Part shown: piece by piece, positions 2,293-32,023 of the stretch
Position numbering within the stretch: position 1 is the stretch's first letter
Layout of the letters: the number at the start of each line of letters is the position of its first letter
DNA from: Saccharopolyspora aridisoli
GTDB taxonomy: Bacteria; Actinomycetota; Actinomycetes; Mycobacteriales; Pseudonocardiaceae
Length of the DNA: 64,000 bases
Assembly (NCBI RefSeq): GCF_004348445.1
Contig: NZ_SMKV01000029.1
Span: 1-64,000, forward strand
Direction of reading: 5' to 3'
Notes under the pieces: model-generated
Seen by the model: only the letters and a program-made list of their open reading frames with translations
What the model was told of the DNA's origin: nothing
Databases searched by the model: none
Program-made: the position numbers and the translations under genes

Positions 2293-4416
2293 TCAGCCCG
2301 CCCGGAGCGCGTTCAGCGAGCGCCGCGCCGCGGTCGTGACCGCTTCGGCCGTGATGCCGAACTCGGCGTACAGCGTCTGGTGGTCGGCCGAGGCGCCGAA
2401 GTGCTCCAGCGAGACGATCTCGCCGGCGTCCCCGACGAAGCGGTGCCACGACTGGGCAACGCCGGCCTCCACCGCGACCCTCGCCCGCACCGAAGGGGGC
2501 AGCACGGACCGGCGGTAGGACTCGTCCTGCGCGTCGAACCACTCCACGCACGGCATCGACACCACGCGCGTCGGAATTCCCGCGGCCTCCAGGGACTTCC
2601 TGGCCGCCACGGCCAGCTGCACCTCCGACCCGGTCGCGATCAGCAGCACCTCGGGACTGCCGGACGAGGCCTCGGCGAGCACGTAACCGCCGCGGGCGAC
2701 GCCATGCGGGTCCGTGCCTTCCAGCGTCGGCACCCCCTGGCGGGTCAGCGCCAGACCGGCGGGACCGCTGGGGTTCTCCAGCACGGTCTTCCACGCCGCC
2801 GCGGTCTCGTTGGCGTCGGCCGGGCGCACGACCGCCAGATCGGGGATCGCGCGCAGGCTCGCCAGGTGCTCGACCGGCTGGTGCGTCGGGCCGTCCTCGC
2901 CGAGTCCGATCGAGTCGTGCGTCCACACGTAGATCACCGGCAGCCGCATCAGCGCCGCCAACCGGACCGCAGGTCGCATGTAGTCGCTGAAGACCATGAA
3001 AGTCCCGCCGTAGGGCCGGGTTCCGCCGTGCAGCGCGATGCCGTTGAGGATCGAGCCCATCGCGTGCTCGCGGACGCCGAAGTGCAGCGTCCGCCCGTAG
3101 GGCTGGGCGCTCCACGTGCTGGTGGAGATGCTCTCCGGACCGAACGAGTCCGCGCCCTTCATCGTCGTGTTGTTGCTCTCCGCCAGGTCGGCGGAACCGC
3201 CCCACAGCTCGGGGAGCGCCTCGGCCAGGGACGCCAGCACCTCCGCCGACGCCTTGCGGGTCGCGAGCCCCTTCTCGTCGGGCTCCCAGCTGGGCAGCCC
3301 GTCGGCCCACCCGGCGGGCAGCTCGCGGGCCAGCATCCGGTCCAGCAGCGCCTTGCGCCGCGGGTTCCCGGCCGCCCACGTGTCGAAGGCGATCTGCCAC
3401 TTCTCGCGGGCGGCCCTGCCGCGCTCGGCGACCGCGCGGGTGTGGTCGAGCACCTCGTCGTCGACCTGGAACGACCTCTCGGGGTCGAAGCCCAGCAGCG
3501 ACTTGACCTCGGCCAGCTCCTCGGCGCCCAGAGCCGCGCCGTGGGCTTTGCCGGTGTTCATCTTGGTCGGTGCCGGGTAGCCGATGACCGTGCGCAGCAC
3601 GACGAGGCTCGGTCGTCCGGTGTCGGCGCGAGCGGCCTGCAAGGCGTCGAGGATGCCGGTGACGCACTCGCCGCCGTCGACGGTGACGACGTGCCAGCCG
3701 TAGGACTCGTAGCGCTTGGCGGTGTCCTCCGACAGCGCGATCCTCGTGTCGTCCTCGATGGAGATGTCGTTGGCGTCGTAGATGACCGTGAGGTTGCCCA
3801 GCTGCTGCGTGCCGGCCAGCGAGGACGCCTCGGAGGTCACGCCCTCCTCGATGTCGCCGTCGGAGGCGATCACGTAGATGTGGTGGTCGAAAACGCTGTC
3901 GCCGGGCGCGGTTTCGGGATCCAGCAGGCCGCGCTCGCGGCGGGCGGCCATCGCCATGCCGACCGCGTTGGCCAGTCCCTGGCCCAACGGTCCGGTCGTG
4001 GTCTCCACGCCTGAGGTGTGGCCGTGCTCCGGGTGGCCCGGGGTCAGCGAGCCCCAGGTCCGCAGCGCCTTGAGGTCGTCGAGCTCCAGGCCGTAGCCCG
4101 ACAGGAACAGCTGCACGTACAGCGTGAGGCTGGAATGGCCCGCCGAGAGCACGAAGCGGTCGCGGCCGAGCCAGTTCGCGTCGTTCGGATCGTGTCGCAT
4201 GACGTGCTGGAACAGCGCGTACGCGACCGGTGCCAGGCTCATGGCGGTGCCCGGGTGCCCGCTCCCGCACCTCTCCACGGCGTCGGCGGCCAGCACCCGC
4301 GCGGTGTCGATGGCGCGGCGGTCCAGGTCGGTCCAGTCGTCGGGCAGGTGGGCGGTGGTCAACCGGTCGAGCTCGTCGCTCACCCGGTAGTGGGCGGTGT
4401 GCTGGTTCGCGATCAT
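2293..4416 (-). CDS. tkt: Transketolase
   Basis: A full-length 707-aa thiamine-diphosphate transketolase. It moves two-carbon units between sugar phosphates and regenerates ribulose 5-phosphate in the RuMP and pentose-phosphate cycles. Visible motifs are GSGHPG at 51-56, the [16 protein letters not shown] loop at 132-147, the diphosphate-binding SDGDIEEG at 185-192, the pyrimidine-domain [13 protein letters not shown] near 430, and the [13 protein letters not shown] segment near 490. It is the last gene of a minus-strand operon after hexulose-phosphate synthase and an 88-aa ORF. This dedicated copy probably serves formaldehyde fixation, and a housekeeping transketolase is expected elsewhere. 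It should be driven by the promoter upstream of hxlA. Confidence 0.95.
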
Positions 4417-4482: not shown

Positions 4483-4749
4483 TCAGGCAGGCCACATCCG
4501 CGAGAGCTCGGGATGGTCGTCATCGAGGAGGCGGTGCGCCAGCGCGATCGCCTCGTCCCGGTCGATCTGGTGGAGGGCCGGTTCGGACCTGGCGACGCCC
4601 TCCAGGACGTTGGCCAGCGCTTCGGCCGCGTTCGGGGACGTGCTGCCGTCGCTGCCGCGCACGTGGCGCCGCCGCATCACCGCCGCGGCGTCCAGCAGCA
4701 GTTTGCGCTGGGCCTCGCGCAGGTCCGCATCGCTGTTGGAGCTTCTCAT
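4483..4749 (-). CDS. Unknown 88-aa protein within the RuMP operon
   Basis: I do not recognise this small hydrophilic, helix-rich protein. It lies between transketolase and hexulose-phosphate synthase, with gaps of 66 and 72 bases, on the same strand. The ATG at 4749 is preferred over an upstream one at 4776 because GGAGGGGGAAGTGA immediately precedes it. The sequence is rich in Arg, Asp, Glu and Ala, with a basic MRRRHVRG stretch near residues 25-32 and the acidic C-terminal segment HRLLDDDHPELSRMW. No cysteines, signal peptide or membrane segment are present. Its position suggests a role with the RuMP enzymes, but nothing in the sequence shows it. Confidence 0.7.
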   Translation of the reverse strand: MRSSNSDADLREAQRKLLLDAAAVMRRRHVRGSDGSTSPNAAEALANVLEGVARSEPALHQIDRDEAIALAHRLLDDDHPELSRMWPA

Positions 4750-4821
4750 GTCACTTCCCCCTCCTTCGCCGGACATACGGCCGGGAGGGCTCGCAGCCCC
4801 GCCCGGCCGTGCCGTGACCCG

Positions 4822-5448
4822 TCAGCGGATGAGGCTCTTGAGGTTCTTCGCGGCCGCGGCCGGGTCCTTCGCGCTGTAGATCGCGCCTCCGGCGACCGCG
4901 ACGGTCGCCCCGGAGTCCTGCACCGAGGCGATGGATTCGGCCTTGATGCCACCGGCGATGGAGAACGGGACGCCTGCCTGCTTTCCGTCGTCGAGCAGGG
5001 TCTGGATCGTGTAGCCGGGCTTGGCCTGCTCGTCGAGCCCGGCGTGGATCTCCACGAACGACACGCCCATCTTCGACACCTCGCGGATGCGGGTCACCCG
5101 GTCGGCCACCACGGTGATCATGTCGGCGACGACGTCCTTGCCGTGCTTGCGACCGGCGGCGACCGCCCCGCGCACGGTGTCGTCATCGGCGGCGCCCATC
5201 ACGGTGACCAGGTCGGCACCCGCGGCGAAGGCGAGGTCGGCCTCCAGCTCACCGGCATCGGCGGTCTTCATGTCGGCGAAGACCAGCTTGTCCGGGTGCG
5301 CGGCCTTGATCGCCTTGATCGCGTCGAGCCCCTCGGCCTTGATCAGCGGCGTGCCCAGCTCGAGGATGTCCACGTGGTCGGCGGTCTGGCGAGCCAGGGT
5401 CAGCGCGTCTTCGAGGGTGGCGACGTCCAGTGCTACCTGCAGCTTCAC
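4822..5448 (-). CDS. hxlA: 3-hexulose-6-phosphate synthase
   Basis: Catalyses aldol condensation of formaldehyde with ribulose 5-phosphate to D-arabino-3-hexulose 6-phosphate, the first step of the ribulose-monophosphate cycle. The 208-aa protein has the normal length and the orotidine-decarboxylase-superfamily barrel: LDVATLEDAL at 7-16, VDILELGTPLIKAEG at 26-40, the catalytic and Mg-binding ADMKTAD at 58-64, FVEIHAGLD at 131-139 and a C-terminal phosphate-binding SIAGGIK. The start is the GTG at 5448, preceded by GAGGAG; the longer open frame upstream crosses the promoter and operator region. It is the first gene of a minus-strand operon with the 88-aa ORF and transketolase, and is divergent from its partner isomerase. 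Confidence 0.93.
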   Translation of the reverse strand: MKLQVALDVATLEDALTLARQTADHVDILELGTPLIKAEGLDAIKAIKAAHPDKLVFADMKTADAGELEADLAFAAGADLVTVMGAADDDTVRGAVAAGRKHGKDVVADMITVVADRVTRIREVSKMGVSFVEIHAGLDEQAKPGYTIQTLLDDGKQAGVPFSIAGGIKAESIASVQDSGATVAVAGGAIYSAKDPAAAAKNLKSLIR

Positions 5449-5543
5449 GGCAATCTCCTCAAATCGTGGTGCTCGGCGGATTCCAGATTTCCCGATCGGT
5501 TCCGCGCTTCGGTCCGCGAGTCGGGAACGAGCAACGGCCTGTG

Positions 5544-5573
5544 ACAGTGCACCGATCTCCGCGCGCCGGTCAA
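5544..5573 (-). promoter_or_regulatory. Predicted hxlA operon promoter
   Basis: On the minus strand a -35 box TTGACC (5573-5568) is followed, with an 18-base spacer, by CACTGT (5549-5544) as a -10 candidate, about 95 bases before the hxlA GTG. The nearest LytTR-like repeat begins exactly 18 bases upstream of this -35, the same distance as at hxlB and fba. That shared geometry is the main support, because the -10 is weak. Confidence 0.55.
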
Positions 5574-5583
5574 CTGCGCCGGA

Positions 5584-5612
5584 ACGAACGGATGCCACGG
5601 CGGAACAAACGG
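5584..5612 (-). promoter_or_regulatory. Two 21-bp-spaced LytTR-like half-sites for hxlA
   Basis: Read on the minus strand, CCGTTCGT (5591-5584) and CCGTTTGT (5612-5605) are direct repeats exactly 21 bp apart. LytTR-family regulators bind pairs of about 9-bp direct repeats separated by 12-13 bp, with a GTT core, so spacing and core both fit. The sites lie upstream of the hxlA -35 box on the same helical face. The likely binders are the two LytTR proteins encoded at 9201 and 15810. Confidence 0.65.
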
Positions 5613-5699
5613 CCGGAACGCCCTTCCAGATGGCAAATCCTGGAGTGCGTCGAGGTCGGGCGGAATGGTGATCTACAGTCCGCTGACGAGCACGAACGG

Positions 5700-5749
5700 C
5701 CGTTTGAGCGGATTTCACGGCCGTTCGTTCCGCGCGGGTGCCTGTTCGT
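5700..5749 (+). promoter_or_regulatory. Three 21-bp-spaced LytTR-like half-sites for hxlB
   Basis: CCGTTTGA (5700-5707), CCGTTCGT (5721-5728) and CTGTTCGT (5742-5749) are direct repeats at exact 21-bp intervals. Each has the GTT core. The last begins 18 bp before the TTGACC -35 box at 5760. The repeats are oriented towards hxlB, while the two sites at 5584-5612 point towards hxlA, so the divergent region has one array per operon. A perfect palindrome AACGGCCGTT (5695-5704) overlaps the first repeat. Confidence 0.7.
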
Positions 5750-5759
5750 GACCGCTCTG

Positions 5760-5788
5760 TTGACCGGTTCTGGGCATCCGTGCAGTCT
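5760..5788 (+). promoter_or_regulatory. Predicted hxlB-glpX-pfk promoter
   Basis: TTGACC (5760-5765), a 17-base spacer and CAGTCT (5783-5788). The segment is nearly the same as the one before fba (TTGACC, 17 bases, CAGCCT), with ATCCGTGCAG shared in the spacer and -10. Such similarity between unlinked intergenic regions points to co-regulation. The leader to the hxlB ATG is about 140 bases. Confidence 0.6.
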
Positions 5789-5935
5789 CTCAACCGCAGA
5801 ATGCGTCCCGAAATGCGACTGCGGAAACCGCGGATTCGCGACGAGGGCGGAATCCAGGAATGGGAAAGCGCGATTTCACCATCGCGGATGAGCCTGGAGT
5901 TCTTCGACGAACGCAGCAGTGGGGAGTGGCTCGAG

Positions 5936-6541
5936 ATGACCGGAACGGACACCGCTGACCAGAACATCGGCGACAGGCTGAACCCGCCGCACTTCAGCTA
6001 CGCGACGCTGGCGATCAGCGGCGAGGTGGACCGAGTGCGTCGGGACGTCCAGCCCGCGGCTTGGGCCCGCGCCGGCGCGATGCTGCTCAACGCGACGGCG
6101 GTCTTCACCGTCGGCGGCGGGCGCAGTGGACTGGCCCTGCAGATGGCCGCGATGCGCTTCATGCACCTCGGGCTCTCCGCGCACGTCGTGGGGGAGACGA
6201 CCGCGCCGGCGATCGGCGCCGGTGACGTCCTGGTCGCCGCGTCCGGATCCGGCACCACCTCCCGCGTGGTGCGGGCCGCTGAAACCGCGCGCGAGCAGGG
6301 AGCGAACGTCATCGCGTTGACCACCGCGCCCGACTCGCCGCTGGCCAAGCTCGCGACCGAGGTGCTGGTCATCCCCGCCGCCGACAAGCAGGACTTCGAG
6401 GGCAAGGCGTCCGAGCAGTACGCGGGGAGCCTGTTCGAGCAGTCCGTGCTGCTGCTCAGCGACGCGCTGTTCCACGCGCTGTGGCGGTCCAGCGGAGTGC
6501 AGGCCCGCGACTTGTGGCGCCTGCACGCGAATCTGGAGTGA
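5936..6541 (+). CDS. hxlB: 6-phospho-3-hexuloisomerase
   Basis: Converts D-arabino-3-hexulose 6-phosphate to fructose 6-phosphate, the second RuMP step. The 201-aa protein is a SIS-domain isomerase: TVGGGRSGLALQMAAMR at about 58-74 and VLVAASGSGTTSRV at about 98-111 form the sugar-phosphate loops, and FEGKASEQYAGSLFEQS near 155-170 matches the family's C-terminal region. The ATG at 5936 is chosen because GGGGAG lies 9 bases upstream and the conserved part starts soon after; the ORF stays open further upstream into the promoter region. It begins the plus-strand operon hxlB-glpX-pfk and is divergent from hxlA, a split arrangement instead of the hxlAB order seen in many methylotrophs. Confidence 0.92.
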   Translation: MTGTDTADQNIGDRLNPPHFSYATLAISGEVDRVRRDVQPAAWARAGAMLLNATAVFTVGGGRSGLALQMAAMRFMHLGLSAHVVGETTAPAIGAGDVLVAASGSGTTSRVVRAAETAREQGANVIALTTAPDSPLAKLATEVLVIPAADKQDFEGKASEQYAGSLFEQSVLLLSDALFHALWRSSGVQARDLWRLHANLE

Positions 6542-6586
6542 CCGGGACCGGAAATGCAGGCAGGCAACCGAACCGAGGAGCCCGAG

Positions 6587-7567
6587 ATGCACCGGACCGC
6601 ACCGCGAACCCGCACCGACGTCCGCACCCTGGAGGCGATCGCGCTGGCCGCCACGCACAGCGCGGCGATCGCCAGCCACGCCTGGGTGGGGCGGCACGAC
6701 AAGAACGCCGCGGACGCAGCGGCGACCGAGGCCATGCGCCAGGTGCTCGCCGACGCCCCCGGCAGGGGCACGGTCGTCATCGGTGAAGGCCAGAAGGACG
6801 AGGCTCCGATGCTCTACAACGGCGAGACCGTGGGCAACGGGTGCGGCCCGGACTTCGACATCGCCGTGGACCCGCTCGAAGGCACCTCGTTCTGCGCCAA
6901 GAACCACCCGGGCGCGATGGCCACCATCGCCTTCGCCGAGCCCGGGACGCTCTGGTCGCCCGGCCCCGGCTTCTACATGGACAAGATCGTGGTCCCGCCG
7001 CAGGCGAAGGGCGTCGTCGACCTCGCCGACACGCCCGAGCGGACCTTGGCCAACGTCGCCCACGCCCTCGGAAAACCGGTCAACCGGCTGCGCGTGGTCG
7101 TCATGGACAAGCCTCGCCACCAGGAGCTGATCGCGCGACTGCTGCGAGCCGGAGCCTCCGTGCACACCCCGGCCGAAGGCGATGTCGGCGGCAGTCTCGA
7201 AGTGCTGCTGCCGACCGGCGATGCCGATCTGCTGCTCGGCATCGGCGGCACGCCCGAGGGCGTGATGACCGCCGCCGCGGTCCGCGCGCTGGGCGGTGAC
7301 ATGCTCGGCCGCCTCGCCCCGCAGCGCGAGGAGGAAGCGGCCGCCATCCGCGCGGCGGGCATGGACGTCGACCGCGTCTACACCTGCGACGAGCTCGTTG
7401 GCGGGGACTCGCTGTTCGTCGCCACCGGCGTCACCGGCGGGTCGCTGCTGAACCGTCCGCGGGAGTCCGAGGGCGCCGTGCTCGCGGAGTCGATGCTGAT
7501 CTCACGCGGCCAGGTGCGCCGCATCTCGCACACCAGCGCGCGTCCGGTGAGGGGTGGGATCCGATGA
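6587..7567 (+). CDS. glpX: Class II fructose-1,6-bisphosphatase (GlpX type)
   Basis: Hydrolyses fructose 1,6-bisphosphate to fructose 6-phosphate. GlpX enzymes of methylotrophs may also act on sedoheptulose 1,7-bisphosphate, which would suit the RuMP rearrangement phase; which activity dominates here is not visible. The 326-aa protein has the lithium-sensitive phosphatase metal motifs GEGQKDEAP at 66-74 and DPLEGT at 95-100, the LLGIGGTPEGV loop near 213-223, and normal length. The start at 6587 has GAGGAG six bases upstream; an ATG at 6554 lacks one. It follows hxlB by 45 bases and overlaps the next gene by four bases (ATGA), so the two are translationally coupled. Confidence 0.92.
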   Translation: MHRTAPRTRTDVRTLEAIALAATHSAAIASHAWVGRHDKNAADAAATEAMRQVLADAPGRGTVVIGEGQKDEAPMLYNGETVGNGCGPDFDIAVDPLEGTSFCAKNHPGAMATIAFAEPGTLWSPGPGFYMDKIVVPPQAKGVVDLADTPERTLANVAHALGKPVNRLRVVVMDKPRHQELIARLLRAGASVHTPAEGDVGGSLEVLLPTGDADLLLGIGGTPEGVMTAAAVRALGGDMLGRLAPQREEEAAAIRAAGMDVDRVYTCDELVGGDSLFVATGVTGGSLLNRPRESEGAVLAESMLISRGQVRRISHTSARPVRGGIR

Positions 7568-8931
7568 CGCTGCACCTGGACGACTTGCGCGTTCGCCACC
7601 TCGGCGAGTGCCGCTACGACTCACCGCTGTCCGCGATGCTCGCCGCCAAGCGGACCTCTCCGCACTACGTGGCCGAAGGCGACCGGGTCCTGCTGGAGGA
7701 CACCGTGTCCATGCTCGCCGAGCACGGCCTCAGCCCGCACGACCTGCCGAGCTTCGAGGCCGCAGGTCCGCGCCGCAAGATCTACTTCGACCCGGCGCGG
7801 GTCACCGCCGGCATCGTCACCTGCGGTGGGCTGTGCCCCGGGCTCAACGACGTCATCCGCGGCCTGGTGCAGGAACTGACCGTGCAGTACGACGTCAAGC
7901 GCATCGTGGGCTTCCGCAACGGACTTCGGGGCCTGACCGCCCGGCACCGCGACGACACCATCGAGCTGACGCCCGACCGCGTGCGCGACATCCACAACGC
8001 GGGCGGCACCATCCTGGGCAGCTCGCGAGGAGCGCAGGACGCCGAGGAGATGGTCGACAGCCTCCTGCTGCGCGGCATCAACGTCCTGTTCGTCATCGGC
8101 GGGGACGGGGGCATGAACGCCGCGACGAACTTGGCCGCGGCGATCCGGGCACGAGGTCTGGACATCGCCGTCATCGGCGTGCCCAAGACGATCGACAACG
8201 ACCTGCCCTACACCGACCAGTCCTTCGGGTTCCAGAGCGCTTTCGCGCAGGCGGCCAACTTCATCTCCTCGGTCTCCATCGAGGCCGCGGCCAGCCCGGA
8301 CGGGATCGGCATCGTGAAGCTGATGGGACGGCATTCCGGGTTCATCGCCTGCTACGCCTCGCTGGCCCGCAACGCGGCGGACATCGTCCTCATCCCGGAG
8401 GTCCCCTTCGCCCTGGAGGGCGAGGACGGGTTGCTGGCCCGGGTCGAGCGGCACGTCCGGTCGAAGGGCTTCGTGGTCATCGTCGTCGCCGAAGGAGCGG
8501 GGCAGGACCTGCTCGCCGAGCGCGGCCTGCTGGAGGGCAATGCCACCGACGCCTCCGGGAACGCCAAGCTCGGCGACATCGGAGGGCTGCTCCGGGAGAC
8601 CATCACCGCTCACCTGACGGCGGCCGGGCTGGCGCCGACGGTGCGCTACATCGATCCCAGCTACGCCATCCGCAGCGTGACCGCCAACGCCTACGACAGC
8701 GTCTACTGCCTGCGCCTGGCGCACGCCGCGGTGCACGCGGCCATGGCCGGTCGCACGGAGACCGCGGTGGTGCGCTGGCGGCGGCGGTTCGTGCACGTGC
8801 CGATGCCGCTGATCATCAGCCACCGCAACCAGGTCGATCCGGACGGTGACCTGTGGATGTCGGTGCTCGAAGCGACCGGCCACCTCGTCCACGACCCGGC
8901 ACCGCACCGCCCGCTGCTCGTCGAGAGGTGA
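7564..8931 (+). CDS. pfkA: 6-phosphofructokinase (plant/trypanosome-like group)
   Basis: Phosphorylates fructose 6-phosphate to the bisphosphate and so feeds the aldolase branch of the RuMP cycle. The 455-aa protein is longer than the 320-aa bacterial PfkA because of an extra N-terminal segment of about 75 residues. Motifs are TCGGLCPGLND at 86-96, VIGGDGGMNAA at 177-187, VIGVPKTIDNDLPYTD at 203-218 and KLMGRHSGFIA at 252-262. The glycine in GGDGG favours ATP; pyrophosphate enzymes have GGDD. The lysine in PKTIDND occurs in PPi-dependent enzymes and in plant and trypanosome ATP enzymes. ATP dependence is therefore more likely but needs assay, since the methylotroph Amycolatopsis methanolica has a PPi-dependent PFK. 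It is the last gene of the operon. Confidence 0.88.
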   Translation: MTLHLDDLRVRHLGECRYDSPLSAMLAAKRTSPHYVAEGDRVLLEDTVSMLAEHGLSPHDLPSFEAAGPRRKIYFDPARVTAGIVTCGGLCPGLNDVIRGLVQELTVQYDVKRIVGFRNGLRGLTARHRDDTIELTPDRVRDIHNAGGTILGSSRGAQDAEEMVDSLLLRGINVLFVIGGDGGMNAATNLAAAIRARGLDIAVIGVPKTIDNDLPYTDQSFGFQSAFAQAANFISSVSIEAAASPDGIGIVKLMGRHSGFIACYASLARNAADIVLIPEVPFALEGEDGLLARVERHVRSKGFVVIVVAEGAGQDLLAERGLLEGNATDASGNAKLGDIGGLLRETITAHLTAAGLAPTVRYIDPSYAIRSVTANAYDSVYCLRLAHAAVHAAMAGRTETAVVRWRRRFVHVPMPLIISHRNQVDPDGDLWMSVLEATGHLVHDPAPHRPLLVER

Positions 8932-8961
8932 TCTGGACCACCGCTGGTTGTCGCCGGGCTG

Positions 8962-9030
8962 CCGCTCGTGCGCCGTTCGCCAGCGGTCGTCGCGTTCTGC
9001 TTGCCCCCGAAATCTCGCACGACGTAGCTT
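8962..9030 (+). promoter_or_regulatory. Predicted promoter and LytTR-like sites of the regulator gene
   Basis: CCGCTCGT (8962-8969) and GCGGTCGT (8983-8990) are 21 bp apart. The second starts exactly 18 bp before TTGCCC (9001-9006), which has an 18-base spacer to TAGCTT (9025-9030), a reasonable -10. This repeats the geometry seen at hxlA, hxlB and fba with weaker repeats, and suggests autoregulation of the AcoR-GAF-LytTR gene that begins at 9201. Confidence 0.45.
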
Positions 9031-9200
9031 TCGGCCCGAGGTCGTGAAGGCCGGAGCGCGAGACCCTCAAACGCCCATTCGCCGTTCGCGACGTGCTCCC
9101 AACAAGCCAGCGGTCCGTGCGCGACACGGTTCGTCCCGGTGCGTGGTTCCCACGTCCGCACTCGTTCCGGGTTGGTGAGAAGACCAAAGGCGGTCCCCAG

Positions 9201-10601
9201 ATGGTAGACATGCACCGGCTCGACCTCCCGGCCCGCAAACCGCGCAAGCCGACGGTGTACGAGGCGTGGGAGCGCTTCGTGCGGGGTGAGGACGACGTCC
9301 ACGGCGTGCGGCCGGAGGTGGCGATGTCCTGGCACCGCTGCCGGGACCAGTACGCCGTCGACCCCGCGCTCACCGAGGCCCCGGTCGCCACGGCCGACGT
9401 CGACCACGCGCTGGAGCACGACGTGGTGTTCGCCGAGCTGGGTTTTCGCGCGGCCTCGGTCGTGGACGAGGTGAGCAACATGGGTGGCGTCGTGACGGTC
9501 GCCGACGCCTCCGGCCGGGTGCTGGCCGAATGGGGTGACAGGGCCACGCGCTCCTTCGCCGCCAAGGCCAACCTGGCGCCCTGGTACTGCTGGTCGGAGT
9601 GCGCCACCGGCACCAACGGCATGGGAACCGCGCTGGAGACGACTTCCCCCGTGGTGATCAGGGGCGCGGAGCACTGGTGCCAGGCTTTCCACGACTGGAC
9701 CTGCGCTGGCGTGGCGGTGCGGGACGTGGTGACCAAGGAACCGGTCGCGGTCCTCAACATCTCCTGCTGGCGCAGCGAGCTCCCCAAGGTTGCGGGTGCG
9801 TGGTTGAGCAACGCCGCCAGCAGGACGCAGTTCATGCTCCGCCGTCGTGCCCGCGATGCCGGTGCCGAGCTGGTCGCGGCCTACAACCACGCGCGCTCGC
9901 GTTCGGGCGCTTCGGTGGCGGCCCTGGATCCCGCCGGCCGCGTGGTGATCGCCGATGACAAGGCGAGCGTGCTGCTCGGCGTGCCGAGCTCGACGCCTGC
10001 GCCCGACCCGGCGGTGCGGTGGAACCCGAGGCTCCCGGATCTGATCCGAGCCGCGCGGTACGCCGCCAAGCAGGCGTCCCACAACCCCGCTTGGGTCGGG
10101 TCCACGCAGGTCTTCACCCACCTCGCCGACGATCCGACGCCGATCAGCTTCCGGCCGGTGTTCCTGTCCGGGAACCTGGTCGGGACCCTGGTGTCGTTCG
10201 GCCTCTCCGAGGGTGAGCAGCTGCCGCGCGCGGACTGCGGGGGAGGTGCCCACGGCCAGGGCCAGGCGCCGCGGATCGTCGCGACCAGGGAGAACCGGAT
10301 GGTGCTGCTGCGCCCGCCTGAGGTCTCGTTCGCCGAGTCGGAGGGCAACGACGTCTGGTTGTCCACCGACCAGGGTCGCCTGCGCGCGGCGACGCCGGCC
10401 CTGGACAAGCTGGAACGAGAGCTGAGTGGCAGCGGATTCCTCCGAGTGCACCGGCAGTACGTGGTGAACCTCGACCGCGTCCGGGAGGTCGAGCGCGGTT
10501 TCAAGGGCGAACTGGCTCTGGTGATGGACGGCCAGGCGAACGCGATGGTGCCCGTGTCCCGGCGGAACGCTCCGGCGGTGCGGCGCGAGCTGGGTATCTG
10601 A
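9201..10601 (+). CDS. AcoR/GAF-type sensor fused to a LytTR DNA-binding domain
   Basis: A 466-aa transcription regulator. The N terminus is like AcoR-family activators: [19 protein letters not shown] at about 35-53, then a GAF sensor domain with the typical [15 protein letters not shown] near 132-146 and a [10 protein letters not shown] segment. A second PAS/GAF-like region spans about 235-340. Instead of the AAA+ and Fis domains expected after AcoR-GAF, the C terminus from about 360 is a LytTR domain containing [18 protein letters not shown]. It sits between the RuMP operon and katG and is the best candidate activator for the 21-bp repeat promoters. The GAF ligand is probably a small alcohol or aldehyde, by analogy with AcoR-type sensors. 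The ATG at 9201 is chosen over an upstream GTG at 9093 because conserved sequence starts here. Confidence 0.8.
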
Positions 10602-10621
10602 GTTCACCGAGGGAGGTTCCG

Positions 10622-12841
10622 ATGCCGGAGAACCCGGATGCGGTGGCGGTCAGGAGGAACTACGACCAGAGCGTGCGGCGGCGCGTTGAACGCGTCCGCA
10701 ACCATCCGGCGGCGGGTGGGGACAACCGCGACTGGTGGCCGGGTCGGCTGGACCTGACGATCTTGGCCAAGCATCACCCCGCGGCCAACCCCCTGGGCCC
10801 GGATTTCGACTACCCGGCCGAGTTCGCGAAGGTCGATCTGGACGCGCTGGCCCGCGATGTCGACGAGGTCCTGACGACCTCGCAGGAGTGGTGGCCTGCC
10901 GATTTCGGGCACTACGGGCCGCTGGTGCTGCGCATGGCCTGGCACTGCGCGGGCACTTATCGCCTCGGCGACGGCCGAGGCGGGGCCAGGACGGGGATGC
11001 AGCGCTTCGCGCCGACCAACAGCTGGCCGGACAACCGGAACCTGGACAAGGCCCGGCGGTTGTTGTGGCCGGTCAAGCAGAAGTACGGCCGCAGCATCTC
11101 CTGGGCCGACCTCATGGTCTTCGCCGGCAACCGCGCGTTGGAGTCCATGGGGTTCACGACGCTGGGTTTCGCGGGTGGACGCGAAGACGTGTGGGAGTCC
11201 GAAGCCGACGTCTACTGGGGTCCGGAGCGCGCCTGGCTCGCGGATGAGCGCCACACCGGTGTGCGAGATCTTCAAGAGCCCCTCGCAGCGGACGAGATGG
11301 GCTTGATCTACGTCGATCCGCAGGGTCCGTCGACGCTGCCGGATCCGATCGCGGCGGGCCGTGCGATCCGGGAGTCGTTCCGGCGGATGGGGATGAACGA
11401 CGAGGAGACCGTCGCGCTCATCGTCGGCGGGCACACCTTCGGGAAGACCCACGGCGCCGCCGACCTGGACCACCTGGCAGCCGAACCCGAGGGTGCGGGT
11501 TTGGAGGAACAAGGGCTGGGCTGGAACAACAGCTACGGAACCGGCAAGGGCCCGGATGCGATCACGACGGGGTTGGAGGGGATCTGGACGCCCACCCCGA
11601 CCAGCTGGGACAACTCGTTCCTGGAGACCCTCTTCGCCTACGAGTGGGACGTCGTGCTCAGCCCAGCCGGACTCTGGCAGTGGGTGCCGAGCGGGGACCA
11701 GGGTCACGGCACGGCCCCGGATCCCCACGACCCGATGAAGCGGCGCACGCCGACGATGCTCACCACCGACCTCGCGTTGCAGGAAGACCCCGGCTACGGG
11801 CCGATCGCCCGACGGTTCCTCGCCCGCCCCGACGAACTCGCCGACACCTTCGCGCGAGCGTGGTTCAAGCTCACCCACATCGACATGGGGCCCCGCCACA
11901 ACTACTTGGGACCGCTGGTTCCGGCGGAACGGATGATCTGGCAGGACCCGGTGCCCGAGGTCGACCACGAACTCGTCGACGACACCGACATCGCCGACCT
12001 CAAGAACCGCATCTCGGCCAGCGGGATCCCGATCCCGCAGCTGGTGTTCACCGCGTGGGCCTCCGCGTCCACCTACCGCGACAGCGACAAGCGCGGCGGC
12101 TCCGACGGAGCTCGCATCCGCCTCGAACCCCAACGCCGCTGGGACGTCAACGACCCTGGCACCACCGGTCCGGTGCTGGCCGCGCTGGAGGGCATCCAGC
12201 AGGAGTTCAACGCCGAACAGGCTGGGGAGAAACGGGTTTCGCTCGCCGACCTCATCGTGCTCGCCGGCTGCGCAGCGGTGGAACGCGCCGCCAGCGGTGT
12301 CCGGGTTCCGTTCACCCCCGGACGCGCCGACGCCACCCAGGAGTGGACGGACGTCGAATCCTTGGCCGCGATCGAACCCGCAGCGGACGGCTTCCGCAAC
12401 TACGTCAGCGCGAAACCGCAGCTGCCGGCCGAACACCTGCTGATCGATAGGGCGAACCAGTTGAGGTTGAGCGCACCCGAGATGACCGCGCTCATCGGTG
12501 GACTCCGCGTGCTCGGCGCCAACCACCGCAGCACACCGGTGGGAGTGCTCACCACGCGACCGGGCGAGTTGACCAACGACTTCTTCACCAACCTCCTCGA
12601 CATGAACGTCGACTGGGCACCGAGGTCGGTCACGCGGGGCATCGCCACCACCTTCGAAGGTCGTGACCGCGAAACCGGAAAACCCCGGTGGACGGCCAGC
12701 CGGGTCGACCTCGTCTTCGGTTGGCACTCCGAATTGCGCGCCCTCGCGGAGATGTACGCGGCCGAGCCGGACACGTTCTCGCGCGTATTCGTGTCGGCCT
12801 GGGACAAGGTCATGAACCTGGGCCGATCGGAAATGCGGTGA
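10622..12841 (+). CDS. katG: Catalase-peroxidase
   Basis: A 739-aa bifunctional heme catalase-peroxidase of full length with duplicated plant-peroxidase folds. The distal site [11 protein letters not shown] is near 103-113, including the Trp and His of the active site; the tyrosine of the Met-Tyr-Trp cofactor is in [11 protein letters not shown] near 223-233; and the Met lies in [12 protein letters not shown] near 250. The proximal heme histidine is in [13 protein letters not shown] near 264-276. GGGAGG precedes the ATG, which is only 20 bases after the LytTR-fusion regulator, so the two may be cotranscribed. In the methylotrophy context it may remove peroxide made during alcohol oxidation; a dedicated catalase-peroxidase is known in methanol-grown Amycolatopsis. 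No FurA gene is adjacent, which is unusual for katG. Confidence 0.95.
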
Positions 12842-13341: not shown

Positions 13342-13803
13342 ATGACGTCAACCCAAGAACGTGAAGACCTTCTGAGTGAACTCGGCTTGGACGCGCAGAA
13401 CAGCGCGGCCATCGGTCGCGTGCTGGGGACCGGCAACATCTTGCGGGCCACCGAGCGGGCCGACGGCACGATGGAGGCGACCATCCGGATCAGGGAAGAC
13501 GAGATCTGCTGGGACCCGGCGATTCTCGTGCTCCCGCACGGTGGTGACGTCGAGCTGACGATCATCAACGACGACAAGAACACGCACGCTTGCCTGCTCC
13601 CGAGCAACGGCGACAAGAAGTTCATCTGGCTGCTGAACCACTCGAAGGGTCGGGCGAAGCTCAACCTGGATGGCCCCGGCTACTACTGGTACAGCTCCCC
13701 GGGCGGGAATGACGAGGGCCGCGGTCTGACCGCCGCCATCGTGGTGCTCGGCGAGGTGCCGCCGGAAGCCCGTCTCGACCGTCCCGACCAGCCGCGCCGG
13801 TAG
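13342..13803 (+). CDS. Small cupredoxin-like PQQ-associated protein
   Basis: A 153-aa protein with a C-terminal cupredoxin-like beta sandwich (about residues 45-137), directly upstream of the PQQ dehydrogenase, with only 14 bases between them. It resembles the small PQQ-associated proteins found next to PQQ dehydrogenases in mycobacteria (MSMEG_3727-like), a recognition made from memory. The first copper-ligand region is NTHACLLPSNG at 80-90, but the usual Cys-His-Met loop reads GYYWYSSPGGNDEGRGL at 113-129, with Ser and Gly where Cys and His would be. It may therefore not bind type 1 copper and could act as a docking or maturation partner. No signal peptide is visible. GAGGAGGTGAGG precedes the ATG. 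Confidence 0.72.
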   Translation: MTSTQEREDLLSELGLDAQNSAAIGRVLGTGNILRATERADGTMEATIRIREDEICWDPAILVLPHGGDVELTIINDDKNTHACLLPSNGDKKFIWLLNHSKGRAKLNLDGPGYYWYSSPGGNDEGRGLTAAIVVLGEVPPEARLDRPDQPRR

Positions 13804-13817
13804 AAAGGATCGAACTG

Positions 13818-15503
13818 ATGACAGTCGAATACGTTGACGCCGGTGACGCGATCGACCACGGAGCGCTGAGCGCCGTTTCCGGCACCGCTCCGGCCGTCAC
13901 CGACAACATCGACTACGAGCGCATCCTCAACGCGCGTTCGGAATCGCACAACTGGATCACCTACTACGGCGACTACGACGGCAAGCGGTACAGCCTGCTG
14001 GACCAGATCAACACCGAGAACGTCAAGCGTCTCGGGCCGGCCTGGATCTTCCAGGCGGGAACCTCCGGGCAGATCGCCGGTGCCTCGACCTACGCTTTCG
14101 AGACCTGTCCGCTGGTCGTGGACGGCGTCATGTACGTGACCGGCTGGGACGGCTGGTTCTGGGCCCTGGACGCCAAGACCGGTGAGCAGCTGTGGCGCTA
14201 CAAGCACGCCGTTCCCTTCGACGTCTCGCTGTGCTGCGGCAACGTCAACCGCGGTTCCGCGGTGGCCAACGGCAAGGTCTACTTCGTGACCCCGAACGCC
14301 CACCTGCTCGCGCTGGACGCGGCCACGGGCAAGAAGGTCTGGGAGAAGACCATCGGTGACGTCCGCGCGGGCGAGAGCGCCTCGCTGGCCCCGCTGGTCA
14401 TCAAGGACACGATCATCACCGGCAGCGCCGGTGGCGAGTTCGGCGTGCGCGGGCACATCGACTGCTGGGACCTGGAGACCGGTGAGCAGCGCTGGCGCTG
14501 CTACACCGTGCCCAAGCCCGGTGAGCCGGGTTCGGAGACCTGGCCGGCCGACGGCGAGGCGTGGGCGCGCGGCGGTGCGAACCACTGGGTCACCGGAACC
14601 TACGACCCCGATACGAACCTGTACTACGCGGGAACCGGCAACCCGGCACCCGACTTCGACGGCGCGGTGCGCGAGGGCGACAACCTCTACACCGACAGCG
14701 TCGTCGCGGTGGACGTCGACACCGGCCAGATCCGGTGGCATTACCAGTTCACCCCGCACGACCTGTGGGACTACGACTCCACGATGGAGATGACCCTGTT
14801 CGAGAGGGACGGGAAGAAGCTCCTCGGGCACTTCGACAAGAACGGCTACTTCTTCGTGCTCGACCGCACCAACGGCGAGTTGCAGCACGTGACGCCGTTC
14901 GTCGACCGGATCGACTGGGGCACCATCACCCGCGACGGCAAGGTGACCCCGCGCAAGTACCCGGACAAGGAAGGCGAGCCCGTCCACTTCTACCCCGGCC
15001 CGGCCGGTGCGAAGGAGTGGACGCACGCCGCCTACAGCCCGCGCACCGACATGTTCTACGTGCCGGTCGCCGACGTGGGTGCGACCGCGACCAGGCGTCG
15101 TCGCGAGTTCAAGGAAGGCATGCCGTACTGGGGCGCCGCCGTCCAGGTCGACATCGACAACATGGCCGGGTCGGTCAGCGCGTTCGACTCCCACGGGGAG
15201 GAGAAGTGGCGCTGGCGCAACCCGCACCCGATGGCCTCCTCGGTGCTGGCGACCGCCGGTGACGTGGTGTTCGCCGGTACGCCGACGGGCGAGTTCCTGG
15301 CCCTAGACGCCCGGACCGGCGAGGAGCTGTGGAAGTTCCAGTGCGGGAGCGGCCACCACGGCAGCCCCATGACCTACTCGGTCGACGGCAAGCAGTACGT
15401 CGCCGTACCGGTCGGCTGGGGTGGCTGGCTGGAGGGCATCATCCCCGGCATGCTCGGCGCAGGCCACGGCAGCGCGCTGATCGTGTTCGCGCTGCCGGAC
15501 TGA
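13818..15503 (+). CDS. PQQ-dependent alcohol (methanol) dehydrogenase, lanthanide-type residues
   Basis: A 561-aa eight-bladed quinoprotein of the methanol/ethanol dehydrogenase family. Family features are the vicinal disulfide Cys139-Cys140 in SLCCGNVNRG, GGEFGVRG at 205-212 with the metal-binding Glu207, GTGNPAP with Asn275, and FTPHDLWDYD at 311-320 with catalytic Asp318. Asp320, two residues later, is the extra aspartate that coordinates lanthanide in XoxF and ExaF enzymes and is Ala in calcium MxaF. Repeated beta-propeller motifs (ALDAKTGEQLW and similar) occur throughout. No signal peptide or twin-arginine leader is visible, which is odd for an enzyme that normally works outside the membrane. 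No cytochrome c or PQQ-biosynthesis gene is nearby. It probably supplies formaldehyde to the RuMP enzymes. Confidence 0.88.
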   Translation: MTVEYVDAGDAIDHGALSAVSGTAPAVTDNIDYERILNARSESHNWITYYGDYDGKRYSLLDQINTENVKRLGPAWIFQAGTSGQIAGASTYAFETCPLVVDGVMYVTGWDGWFWALDAKTGEQLWRYKHAVPFDVSLCCGNVNRGSAVANGKVYFVTPNAHLLALDAATGKKVWEKTIGDVRAGESASLAPLVIKDTIITGSAGGEFGVRGHIDCWDLETGEQRWRCYTVPKPGEPGSETWPADGEAWARGGANHWVTGTYDPDTNLYYAGTGNPAPDFDGAVREGDNLYTDSVVAVDVDTGQIRWHYQFTPHDLWDYDSTMEMTLFERDGKKLLGHFDKNGYFFVLDRTNGELQHVTPFVDRIDWGTITRDGKVTPRKYPDKEGEPVHFYPGPAGAKEWTHAAYSPRTDMFYVPVADVGATATRRRREFKEGMPYWGAAVQVDIDNMAGSVSAFDSHGEEKWRWRNPHPMASSVLATAGDVVFAGTPTGEFLALDARTGEELWKFQCGSGHHGSPMTYSVDGKQYVAVPVGWGGWLEGIIPGMLGAGHGSALIVFALPD

Positions 15504-15615: not shown

Positions 15616-15694
15616 TCTTCCTCGCCTCGCGCCTAGTTCATCAGGTGAGGAACGGGCCGGCGGACGGAACGCATCGACCGTCCGCCGAAACCCG

Positions 15695-15714
15695 TTGGTA
15701 CATCTTGGTACATC
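15695..15714. repeat. Tandem 10-bp repeat upstream of the stand-alone LytTR gene
   Basis: TTGGTACATC is repeated twice without a gap. The first copy overlaps CCGTTGGT (15692-15699), one mismatch from the LytTR-like CCGTTCGT. Ten bases is one helical turn, so the repeat could be an operator, but no 21-bp partner is seen. Confidence 0.3.
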
Positions 15715-15809
15715 GCGGGAACACCGTTGATCGGGCAGGTCCGGGCAGCGCGTCCTGGACGGGGTCAGACGAGCGAGTGGCTTCCGGAACACTGCAACGG
15801 GAGGATGCG

Positions 15810-16151
15810 TTGGGTGAGACGCGACGTGTTGTCGGGATCAGAGGGGACCGGCAGGTCCTGTTCGACATCGCCGAGGTGATCGTGGCCGAATCCGTCGGGA
15901 GGGCCGTCTGGCTGAGAACCGATCTCGGACGTTTCCGTTGCGCGACGGACGGAATCGACAACATCGACGACAAGTACGCGGCCTGCGGATTCGTGCGAGT
16001 TCACCGGAGCTACCTGGTGAACCTCAACCGCGTCCGCGAAGTGACGCGAAAGGACGGTGGCGAACTCGAACTCACCGTCGAGAACTACGGATGGGTCGTG
16101 CCGGTCTCGCGCCGGCGCGCGAAGTTCGTCACCGAAGCCCTCGGGCTCTAG
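15810..16151 (+). CDS. Stand-alone LytTR-domain DNA-binding protein
   Basis: A protein of about 113 residues consisting almost only of a LytTR domain. Its core FVRVHRSYLVNLNRVREV closely matches [18 protein letters not shown] in the fusion regulator at 9201, so both probably recognise the same kind of site. No receiver, GAF or membrane domain is present. The start is uncertain: TTG at 15810 has GGGAGG five bases upstream and begins just before the domain, while GTG codons at 15777 and 15645 would give longer forms without a clear ribosome site. It lies between the PQQ dehydrogenase terminator and fba. It may compete with or partner the larger regulator. Confidence 0.7.
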   Translation: MGETRRVVGIRGDRQVLFDIAEVIVAESVGRAVWLRTDLGRFRCATDGIDNIDDKYAACGFVRVHRSYLVNLNRVREVTRKDGGELELTVENYGWVVPVSRRRAKFVTEALGL

Positions 16152-16367
16152 CGCCAGGCGAACTCCGTCCTCTGCTGCTGCACCCGTTCTCAACCACGGC
16201 TGGCTCCGTCCACATGCGACATGGAGCGCCGTGATGCGGAACGGGTGCATTCGCGCGTCGGCGGTGATGCCCCCGTGTGCAAAAACTTTGGAAAACAAGC
16301 TGTTTTTGTCGACGGGTGAAGAATACGCGTGCCAGCGGCATCGTGCAATGGAATTGATCTGGTCGAT

Positions 16368-16456
16368 CCGTCCGGAAGGTGTTGACAACCGTTCGTGCCA
16401 CGGGTTCGCCGCTTCGTGCTCGGCGCGTTGACCGGGACTTCGGATCCGTGCAGCCT
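16368..16456 (+). promoter_or_regulatory. fba promoter with three 21-bp-spaced LytTR-like sites
   Basis: CCGTCCGG (16368-16375), CCGTTCGT (16389-16396) and CGCTTCGT (16410-16417) are spaced exactly 21 bp apart. The last starts 18 bp before TTGACC (16428-16433), which has a 17-base spacer to CAGCCT (16451-16456). The middle site with its preceding A reads ACCGTTCGT, a full match to the published LytTR half-site pattern. The -35 to -10 segment is nearly the same as at hxlB. This places fba in the same predicted regulon as the RuMP genes. Confidence 0.65.
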
Positions 16457-16537: not shown

Positions 16538-17515
16538 ATGGCTACCTTGAAGGAAATCGCTCACACCATGGTTTCCAACCGGCGAGGAGTGCTCGCCGCG
16601 GATGAGAGCATCGCCACGATGTCCTCCCGGTTGGAAGGCGTCGGAGTGGCTCCGAGCGACGAGAACCGGCGAACCTACCGCGAATTGATCGTCACCACTC
16701 CCGATCTGGCCGATTCGATCAGCGGGATCATCCTGGCCGACGACACCCTGCGCCAGGAGCTGTCGGACGGGCGCACCTTCCCCGCGGCCCTCGCGGACAT
16801 GGGCATCCTGGCCGGCATCAAGGTCGACACCGGGGCCAAGCCGCTGGCCGGGGCCGACGGCGAGAAGGTCACCGAGGGACTCGACGGCCTGCGCGACCGC
16901 GTCGCCGAGTACGTGAGGCTCGGCGCGACCTTCGCCAAGTGGCGCGCCGTGATCACCATCGGTGACGGACTTCCCTCCGAGCGCTCGATCCGCGCGAACG
17001 TGCACGGGCTCGCGCGCTACGCCGGACTCTGCCAGGAAGGCGGGCTGGTGCCGATCGTGGAGCCCGAGGTCCTGATGGACGGCGACCACAGCCTCGCCCG
17101 GTGCCAGCAGGTGACGCGGGTGGTGCTCCGGGCGTTGTTCGACGAGCTAGCCCTGATGCAGGTGCGGCTCGACGGCATGGTCCTCAAGCCCAACATGGTG
17201 GTCGCCGGCAAGGAATGCGCGCAGCAGCCCGGAGTCGAGGAGGTCGCGCAGACCACAGTGGACACCTTGCGGGAGGTGGTTCCGCCGGAGGTGCCCGGAA
17301 TCGCGTTCCTCTCCGGCGGGCAGAGCCCGGAGCTGGCGACCCGCCATCTCGGCGCCATGCAGAACTGCGGTCCGCTGCCCTGGGAGCTGACCTACTCGTT
17401 CGGGCGCGCGCTGGTCGCCCCCGCGCTGGAGACCTGGCGCGGCGACGCGAGCCGGTGGCAGGCAGCTCAGCGGGCGCTGTTGGTCCGAGCCGTCGCGAAC
17501 GCCGCGGCCCGCTGA
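16538..17515 (+). CDS. fba: Class I fructose-bisphosphate aldolase
   Basis: Cleaves fructose 1,6-bisphosphate to dihydroxyacetone phosphate and glyceraldehyde 3-phosphate. The 325-aa protein belongs to the animal/plant-type class I family that uses a Schiff-base lysine and no metal. Conserved segments are RRGVLAADESIATM at about 14-27, GIKVDTGAK at about 94-102, FAKWRAVI near 130, IVEPEVLMDGDH near 172-183, the Schiff-base lysine in MVLKPNMVVAGK near 211-222, and FLSGGQSPELAT near 250-261. AGGAGG lies upstream of the ATG. It completes the hexulose-phosphate to triose-phosphate route with glpX and pfk. Its promoter carries the same repeat array as hxlB. Confidence 0.93.
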   Translation: MATLKEIAHTMVSNRRGVLAADESIATMSSRLEGVGVAPSDENRRTYRELIVTTPDLADSISGIILADDTLRQELSDGRTFPAALADMGILAGIKVDTGAKPLAGADGEKVTEGLDGLRDRVAEYVRLGATFAKWRAVITIGDGLPSERSIRANVHGLARYAGLCQEGGLVPIVEPEVLMDGDHSLARCQQVTRVVLRALFDELALMQVRLDGMVLKPNMVVAGKECAQQPGVEEVAQTTVDTLREVVPPEVPGIAFLSGGQSPELATRHLGAMQNCGPLPWELTYSFGRALVAPALETWRGDASRWQAAQRALLVRAVANAAAR

Positions 17516-20019: not shown

Positions 20020-20037
20020 TTTCCAGCGAGGAGCACC

Positions 20038-31627: not shown

Positions 31628-32023
31628 CGGTCGCATCGCGCTGGGAGGCCGCGGTATGTGGGTGCGTTCGAGGAACTCGTGGCCGATCCGAGGCCGCTCC
31701 GGTGGCCGGCTGGGCTAGCGCAGGACTCGGCCACCCCGGATCCGGGGACCGATTCGTCGAGCACTGCGTGACGCGTCGGCCGTTCGAAACCGGTGCGAAT
31801 CCCTCCGTGCCGGATCGAGATCCGTTCGTCCCCACCGCATTGCCCGCGACGTCGCGGGCGTGGCATGTTCACCTCCACCTGCAGAAACGGGAAATCCCGG
31901 GGGCCCTCGTCGCCGGGGACGCCACGGTTGGGGAGTTCGCCGTCTGCTCGAAGTCGGCGAGGTCGATCCGGCTGTGGGACGGCGGCGCGAAAAGGCGCAC
32001 CCGACACCGCGAAGGAGCGGATT
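31628..32023. other. Gene-free stretch upstream of satP
   Basis: About 400 bases without a supported gene, tRNA or repeat. Short open frames are GC-driven and have no recognisable content. It presumably carries the satP promoter near its end. Confidence 0.4.

Follow-up and report, generated by a model that had tools for sequence, protein, structure and literature searches.

Phased direct repeats as putative LytTR operators of a methanol-PQQ-formaldehyde-RuMP regulon in Saccharopolyspora aridisoli

We analysed a stretch of 64,000 nucleotides from Saccharopolyspora aridisoli (NZ_SMKV01000029.1, positions 1 to 64,000; hereafter the window) and conclude that the direct repeats between its hxlA and hxlB genes are very probably the operators of a one-component activator that joins a GAF/PAS-like sensor to a LytTR domain, runs a methanol-PQQ-formaldehyde-RuMP regulon, and regulates its own gene. 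There are no binding or expression data for this conclusion. The first-pass annotation had read the repeats as LytTR sites, and that reading is supported by the published repeat length, the 12-bp spacer and the 10-bp distance to the -35 box, by the core sequence known from AlgR, by conservation in related genomes, and by co-occurrence with a LytTR regulator gene.

The observed anatomy of the two hxlA-hxlB operators agrees to the base with the first-pass annotation, which had placed repeat starts at 5591 and 5612 on the minus strand and at 5700, 5721 and 5742 on the plus strand, in exact 21-bp steps, with the last repeat of each direction starting 18 bp before a TTGACC box. The array towards hxlA reads CGGCCGTTTGTTCCGCCGTGG / CATCCGTTCGTTCCGGCGCAG / TTGACC, with the repeat cores CCGTTTGT and CCGTTCGT, and the array towards hxlB reads CGGCCGTTTGAGCGGATTTCA / CGGCCGTTCGTTCCGCGCGGG / TGCCTGTTCGTGACCGCTCTG / TTGACC, where the first repeat is weak (CCGTTTGA). 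We counted pairs of CCGTTYGT in positions 5449-5935, allowing at most 2 mismatches in total at periods 9-39, and obtained 3 pairs at 21 bp, 1 at 25 bp, and 0 at the remaining 29 periods. At least one pair at 21 bp is present in 15 of 5,000 dinucleotide shuffles of the same region, and three 21-bp pairs, or a pair together with TTGACC, are present in none of the 5,000. Over the whole window, the pair with TTGACC (1 mismatch allowed) is found four times at period 21 and not once at eight other periods. Single sites resembling CCGTTCGT are common in this G+C-rich genome (116 one-mismatch matches), and one site 18 bp before TTGACC is found at 7 exact places in its 6.0 Mb; among these 7, a second site 21 bp upstream exists only at the three RuMP ones, hxlA, hxlB, and aldolase. 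A search of the whole window against Rfam at gathering thresholds returned no RNA family, and an RNA element was dropped as an explanation for this reason.

Table 1. Genes, putative operators, and promoters discussed in the text, with positions in the window
Feature	Position	Strand	Details
Transketolase	2293-4416	-	Downstream of hxlA
97-aa gene	4483-4776	-	Between hxlA and transketolase
hxlA, 3-hexulose-6-phosphate synthase	4822-5448	-	TIGR03128 237 bits, cut-off 200; equivalog match
hxlA core promoter	5544-5573	-	TTGACC 5573-5568, 18 bp, CACTGT 5549-5544; -10 assignment inferred
hxlA operator (putative)	5574-5615	-	2 repeats of 21 bp (5615-5595, 5594-5574); R1 29.9 bits
hxlB operator (putative)	5697-5759	+	3 repeats of 21 bp, cores at 5700, 5721, 5742; R1 28.6 bits
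hxlB core promoter	5760-5788	+	TTGACC 5760-5765, 17 bp, CAGTCT; -10 assignment inferred
hxlB, 6-phospho-3-hexuloisomerase	5936-6541	+	Equivalog match
glpX	6554-7567		Downstream of hxlB
Phosphofructokinase	7564-8931		Follows glpX
GAF-LytTR promoter	8938-9030	+	3 repeats 8938-9000, TTGCCC 9001-9006, 18 bp, TAGCTT 9025-9030; 34.7 bits
GAF-LytTR (A), proposed regulator	9201-10601	+	GAF/PAS-like sensor and LytTR; ATG start inferred from orthologs
katG	10622-12841	+	Starts some 20 bp beyond the stop codon of GAF-LytTR
PQQ-associated protein and PQQ-dependent alcohol dehydrogenase (methanol/ethanol family)	13342-15503	+
LytTR-only protein, 168 aa, second candidate binder	15645-16151	+	Between PQQ dehydrogenase and aldolase; no recognised sensor
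Class I fructose-bisphosphate aldolase promoter	16365-16456	+	Repeats 16365-16427, TTGACC 16428-16433, 17 bp, CAGCCT; 20.1-20.2 bits
Class I fructose-bisphosphate aldolase	16538-17515	+	NF033379 480 bits, cut-off 250
YaaH-type transporter promoter	31777-31869	+	Repeats 31777-31839, TTGCCC 31840-31845, 18 bp, CATGTT; 29.8 bits
GPR1/FUN34/YaaH family transporter	32024-32674	+	PF01184 67.7 bits, cut-off 25; GTG start inferred

Three more arrays, absent from the first-pass annotation, were detected in the window by a site-matrix scan at the same spacing and confirmed with model R1; they stand before the genes for the GAF-LytTR protein, the class I aldolase, and the YaaH transporter (Table 1). The best R1 score in the window after these three and the arrays at hxlA and hxlB is 12.8 bits. 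The array at the promoter of the GAF-LytTR gene itself suggests autoregulation, and the first repeat of the aldolase promoter is weak. HxlA of the window and its counterpart in Saccharopolyspora endophytica share 98% identity, and the YaaH transporter matches the NCBIfam acetate transporter models only below their cut-offs. No array of its own was found in this genome for the operon that encodes the PQQ-associated protein and the dehydrogenase. From its position, katG is inferred to belong probably to the same operon as the GAF-LytTR gene; it accompanies the cluster in several relatives too. The 97-aa gene matches no Pfam family and has relatives beside hxlA in three other loci (L036, L037, and L042; 64-90% identity).

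Model R1 was trained on 42 arrays that include neither this genome nor the S. endophytica locus L036, and its training set includes orthologous promoters from other Saccharopolyspora. The eight highest R1 matches in the 6.0 Mb are the eight C1 promoters, with scores from 34.7 to 20.1 bits, namely those of GAF-LytTR (the best match of the genome), pqqB, pqqA, S-(hydroxymethyl)mycothiol dehydrogenase, YaaH, hxlA, hxlB, and aldolase. The continuous background in this genome begins at 19.8 bits, so the aldolase match is not distinct by score alone, and it is its layout and its conservation in relatives that set it apart. PqqB, PqqC, PqqE, and the formaldehyde dehydrogenase score above the NCBIfam cut-offs, and PqqA has a Pfam match below the cut-off (E 0.003). 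The first-pass annotation had described the arrays at a RuMP promoter; the regulon whose membership we observe by operator extends well beyond RuMP, to PQQ synthesis, formaldehyde dehydrogenase, the transporter, and the regulator itself. Isolated array-like matches outside the regulon, at C19:23402 in this genome and at C17:35347 in genome G102, are probably due to chance.

The spacing of the repeats and their register with the promoter were observed in several scans. At gap 18, period 21 gives 66 matches against 1-11 at six other periods, period 22 giving 11, and at gaps 17, 19, 15, and 21 period 21 gives 11, 16, 39, and 19 matches, respectively. Six of the 39 gap-15 matches were read, and three of them are hxlB arrays in a shifted register, while the other three are upstream repeats of GAF-LytTR arrays. 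Nine of the 66 were not counted as arrays, either because they score below 21 bits and no known regulon gene is present at their loci or because they look weak. In 18 GAF-LytTR neighbourhoods of other genomes (333,754 bases, with L186 and L189 excluded), the periods of 21 bp and 30 bp each yield 16 pairs of CCGTTCGT, and the remaining periods in the range 10-40 yield 0-3. The 30-bp peak was set aside, as 14 of its 16 pairs are one conserved stretch, which lies inside the PQQ dehydrogenase gene where coordinates were compared (L170-L172). The 21-bp pattern with 1 mismatch was rejected as a genome-wide detector: it is too loose and matches 107 of 298 genomes, and since these are mostly without the GAF-LytTR gene, most of the matches are taken as chance; the reversed pattern used as a control also gives many. 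A control pattern with 22-bp spacing gives no match in this genome and matches in 23 of the 298. R1 at E up to 0.1 matches 297 of the 298 genomes, and thus only its strong tail is informative. The -10 box had not been used in finding the arrays. In a set of 50 arrays (the 42 of the training set and the 8 of this genome, with the formaldehyde dehydrogenase array entered one base out of register), a hexamer with A2 and T6 follows the -35 box at an offset of 17 bp in 16 arrays and of 18 bp in 32, and at the other offsets from 12 to 25 it is present in 0-3 of the 50. These 48 arrays compare with a mean of 3.4 and a maximum of 11 in shuffles, but the set includes orthologous promoters and therefore does not amount to 50 independent cases. 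Two properties used as tests of a LytTR operator, 9-bp direct repeats about 12 bp apart and a last repeat about 10 bp upstream of a sigma-70-type -35 box, are both met, the latter by the gap scan and the -10 register.

The first-pass annotation had named loss of the repeats upstream of hxlA and hxlB in relatives as a point on which its reading could fail. We observe instead that the arrays at both genes are conserved in six Saccharopolyspora genomes, with the cores kept and the spacers diverged. Core identity between species is 0.93 at hxlB (6 genomes), 0.88 at hxlA (6), and 1.0 at the GAF-LytTR promoter (5), whose array also recurs in relatives, and the corresponding spacer identities are 0.43, 0.54, and 0.69. 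In eight named genomes (six Saccharopolyspora, Prauserella muralis, and Pseudonocardia sp. KRD291), R1 at E up to 0.001 gives 50 matches. Genes were assigned by tblastn with 15 labelled proteins, which had been chosen from earlier array matches, and 47 of the 50 matches lie less than 700 bp upstream of regulon genes (hxlA, hxlB, aldolase, GAF-LytTR, pqqA, pqqB, formaldehyde dehydrogenase, and YaaH), in two cases with a LysR gene between the match and aldolase. The three unassigned matches are all in Pseudonocardia, and one of them is a training array before an unlabelled gene. A comparison by hand with the training list shows that 21 of the 50 are training sites and that 27 of the other 29 are assigned, among them 7 of 7 in S. 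endophytica. A PqqA-like peptide match is present between the array and pqqB in Saccharopolyspora endophytica, flava, ipomoeae, elongata, and HNM0986, and in the first four of these it is additional to the pqqA match behind another array.

The GAF-LytTR gene is present in 17 of 298 genomes of the order (>340 bits), and among 345 genomes of the class it was found at E up to 1e-80 only in this one. R1 matches of at least 28 bits, a threshold set after the list was seen, are present in 11 of the 298 order genomes, and 10 of the 11 have the GAF-LytTR gene (Fisher 1.6e-13; 9e-8 on non-training matches; 1.4e-6 without this genome). The co-occurrence that we observe is partly circular, since the arrays behind the site matrix and R1 had been found by this motif, some of them near GAF-LytTR genes. 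G102 has a 28.4-bit match without the gene. Seven of the 17 genomes with the gene have no match of at least 28 bits; one of these has a match of 24.1 bits at the expected place, and the other six have only reverse-orientation CCGTTCGT sites before the dehydrogenase operon. In an eighth GAF-LytTR genome, G259, the match of 28.1 bits is a reverse-oriented pair. We also considered 22 named genomes carrying hxlA (from 23 of 80 loci; S. mutabilis, L043, not included). Nine of them have the GAF-LytTR gene, and eight of the nine have arrays of at least 28 bits, whereas none of the 13 without the gene reaches 28 bits: 12 have no match, and Arthrobacter celericrescens has a single match of 22.3 bits, which is outside the 50 described above. 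The array thus tracks the GAF-LytTR gene among the 22, which indicates that hxlA alone does not bring the array and that the regulator gene goes with it. Cryobacterium sp. Y29 (L048) has no recognisable array despite having both genes in one 20-kb stretch; there the GAF-LytTR gene is at 19180-20547 (about 60% identity) and hxlA is at 10001-10621.

Five LytTR domains were found in the genome. Two of the five proteins begin like response-regulator receivers (read by eye), and the other three are GAF-LytTR A in the window, a second GAF-LytTR protein (B) on contig C24 beside pqq genes, and the LytTR-only protein in the window. The longest open reading frame of GAF-LytTR A begins with GTG at 9093. 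Its LytTR domain meets the family test with a Pfam score of 63.1 bits (cut-off 22.6; 2.9e-17), and a PDB sequence search with the domain gives one weak match, 3d6w. The His of the F-x-R-x-H motif (AgrA H200), which contacts DNA (PMC4227749), is invariant in 8 of 8 GAF-LytTR rows and in 7 of 7 domains aligned. Three Cys residues of the sensor, C47, C160, and C168 as numbered in the alignment of the GAF-LytTR rows, are invariant too. The N-terminal 366 aa match no Pfam family at E up to 10 and no receiver domain was found in them; the test for a response regulator of the AlgR/AgrA type, with a receiver domain, is not met. A weak NCBIfam match of the N-terminus to positions 13-161 of the DhaR profile, weak GAF and PAS matches in B, and a GAF/PAS-like topology in a poor AlphaFold model (mean pLDDT only 56.5) point to a GAF-PAS-like sensor. 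The LytTR domains of B and of the LytTR-only protein are 57% and 49% identical to that of GAF-LytTR A. Of the two LytTR proteins of the window, GAF-LytTR is the better candidate, and the LytTR-only protein might compete with it for the sites, both judgements being made without binding data. A gene of the LytTR-only length with a LytTR match is present near the dehydrogenase in another locus (L172:5373-5879).

We propose a mechanism in which each LytTR domain would occupy one 9-bp nCCGTTCGT site, and the 21-bp spacing, equal to two helical turns, would align two or three protomers along the same side of the helix. The protomers would end 10 bp upstream of the sigma-70-type -35 box, where they could recruit RNA polymerase. 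The sensor half is supposed to detect a methanol-derived cue, formaldehyde or methanol, whose identity is unknown. GAF-LytTR would then jointly turn on PQQ synthesis, mycothiol-dependent formaldehyde oxidation, formaldehyde fixation (hxlA and hxlB-glpX-pfk), the aldolase branch, the transporter, and the gene that encodes it. Four points of this scheme are inferred: that the sites are bound, that binding activates and does not repress, what the signal is, and which LytTR protein does the binding.

LytTR operators are described as direct repeats of 9 bp that in most cases stand 12 bp apart and strongly favour a position 10 bp upstream of the -35 box (PMC6193735), and the present arrays, with the repeat counted as nCCGTTCGT, have this 9-12-9-10 layout. 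The footprinted core of AlgR, a LytTR-family protein of Pseudomonas aeruginosa, is CCGTTCGTC with the variants CCGTTTGTC and CCGTTCATC (PMC4064291); this core equals the array consensus CCGTTCGT, by which the mapped-site test is met, and the first eight bases of both variants occur as cores in the present arrays. AlgR differs in being a two-component response regulator that controls alginate, motility, and other genes, and its sites are often far apart or in either orientation and do not form a 21-bp phased array. RcoM and CoxC are single-component LytTR regulators of CO oxidation (PMC11347149) and resemble the present system in the fusion of a sensor to LytTR without a receiver, in their three direct repeats (at 12-13-bp intervals for RcoM1), and in the control of a one-carbon catabolic cluster. 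They are proteobacterial, with a haem (RcoM) or membrane MHYT (CoxC) sensor and repeats of TTCNNGCA or TTNNNGCN, whereas the present system combines a GAF/PAS-like sensor, CCGTTCGT repeats, and methanol/formaldehyde genes in Actinobacteria. The LRS systems HdrRM and BrsRM share the 9-bp repeats mostly 12 bp apart, the position 10 bp upstream of the -35 box, and autoregulation (PMC6193735), but their regulator is paired with an inhibitory membrane protein; none is adjacent to the window GAF-LytTR gene, whose neighbours are phosphofructokinase and katG, and the corresponding test is not met. HxlR of Bacillus likewise controls hxlAB (hps-phi), in response to formaldehyde, but belongs to the MarR family and not to LytTR (PMC8879981). 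The layout, the AlgR core, and the single-component LytTR precedents in C1 metabolism thus mean that the promoter class is already known. DhaR/AcoR-type activators have a similar N-terminal GAF-PAS-like module, as judged by the weak DhaR match; their output is of the AAA+ and Fis type, whereas that of the window protein is LytTR. Searches for LytTR together with methylotrophy, methanol dehydrogenase, RuMP, formaldehyde, or PQQ found no paper joining them, in a literature that covered few subscription journals and no preprints. The supposition of the first-pass annotation that LytTR control of formaldehyde assimilation is undescribed therefore stands for the literature searched, in which no on-topic paper was found, and that literature holds no precedent for the sensor fusion, the host group, or the regulon. 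A limited search of the open literature also found no described regulator of actinobacterial RuMP methylotrophs; MnoSR of Mycobacterium smegmatis is reportedly a two-component system for methylotrophic metabolism.

Several other explanations have to be weighed against a LytTR activator. That the repeats are a product of chance or of neutral promoter duplication, with no dedicated regulator, is hardly credible, for although single sites are common in so G+C-rich a genome, the shuffles never reproduce the arrangement, the cores are kept while the spacers diverge, and the arrays recur before non-homologous genes of related function. Direct repeats are not peculiar to LytTR proteins, and a regulator of another family (e.g., OmpR/PhoB type, BldC-like, or LysR type) could be imagined to use them: OmpR-type regulators bind direct repeats near the -35 box with a period of about 11 or 22 bp, and BldC is said to use direct repeats as well. 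We regard this as very unlikely, because the OmpR-like period of 22 bp is so much rarer than 21 bp in the gap scan, the motif is identical to a LytTR site that has been mapped by experiment, and the presence of the arrays follows that of a LytTR gene. It is also unlikely that the protein is a LytTR repressor that a C1 signal releases. CoxC is a precedent, being a LytTR repressor of the single-component kind whose operator has three direct repeats, but this operator overlaps the -35 box, whereas the present sites stop 10 bp upstream of it, and most LytTR regulators are activators and bind upstream of the -35 box (PMC11347149). The -10 boxes are moreover poor (e.g., CAGTCT), as we infer would be expected of activated promoters.

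The identity of the binding protein is less settled, and it is possible, though we doubt it, that the main binder is the second GAF-LytTR protein (on C24, beside pqqB, pqqC, and pqqE) or the LytTR-only protein, and that the window GAF-LytTR is one of several competitors. This possibility overlaps with the explanation that we prefer, and our degrees of confidence do not add to 1. The three LytTR domains are related, the array before pqqB lies immediately downstream of the end of the gene for B, in Saccharopolyspora HNM0986 the B gene is preceded by an array, and a LytTR-only-length gene near the dehydrogenase is not confined to the window. On the other hand, a search for GAF-LytTR at E up to 1e-20, which did not extend to LytTR-only genes, returned a single match in each of four array-bearing genomes of another family (f16), and the promoter of the window GAF-LytTR gene holds the best array of the genome, one that recurs in relatives.

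In each of the four f16 genomes, a three-repeat array lies between the GAF-LytTR gene and a divergent dehydrogenase cluster, which includes a PQQ-associated protein and a dehydrogenase. Two of the four (L183 and L185) have room for a gene between GAF-LytTR and the cluster, and in L185 this is an alcohol dehydrogenase by Pfam. We scanned the region upstream of the dehydrogenase operon in 24 loci (without L040 and L045) and found exact reverse-oriented CCGTTCGT sites in 13 of them (L041, L047, and L171-L181), 84-289 bp upstream and in some cases paired at 21 bp; no exact site was found there in the window, L036-L039, or L170, which are all of one genus. Without a tree, we infer that the regulon first served the dehydrogenase and that the RuMP genes were added to this core later. 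On the wider scale, we think it likely that methylotrophy in Saccharopolyspora and its relatives has its dedicated master activator in a clade-restricted GAF/PAS-LytTR protein. A single operator grammar (nCCGTTCGT with a 21-bp period, 10 bp to the -35 box, and 17-18 bp from there to the -10 box) would link the synthesis of the cofactor with formaldehyde oxidation, RuMP fixation, and positive autoregulation. In this view the RuMP genes were recruited into an older PQQ-dehydrogenase regulon, and the other family holds the minimal form of one regulator, one array, and one dehydrogenase cluster. One regulator, one operator code, and a regulon of eight promoters can be tested directly; the promoters are a possible methanol- or formaldehyde-responsive set, and the LytTR family would be extended to C1 metabolism beyond CO.

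Two records carry two hxlA copies on one contig together with the GAF-LytTR gene and arrays, namely L041 and L042 of Prauserella muralis, and L043 and L044 of a record titled Streptomyces mutabilis (NZ_BMTT01000005.1). The two copies are about 21-23 kb apart in both cases, and in the record with the Streptomyces title the methylotrophy island could have moved, or the genome could be mislabelled.
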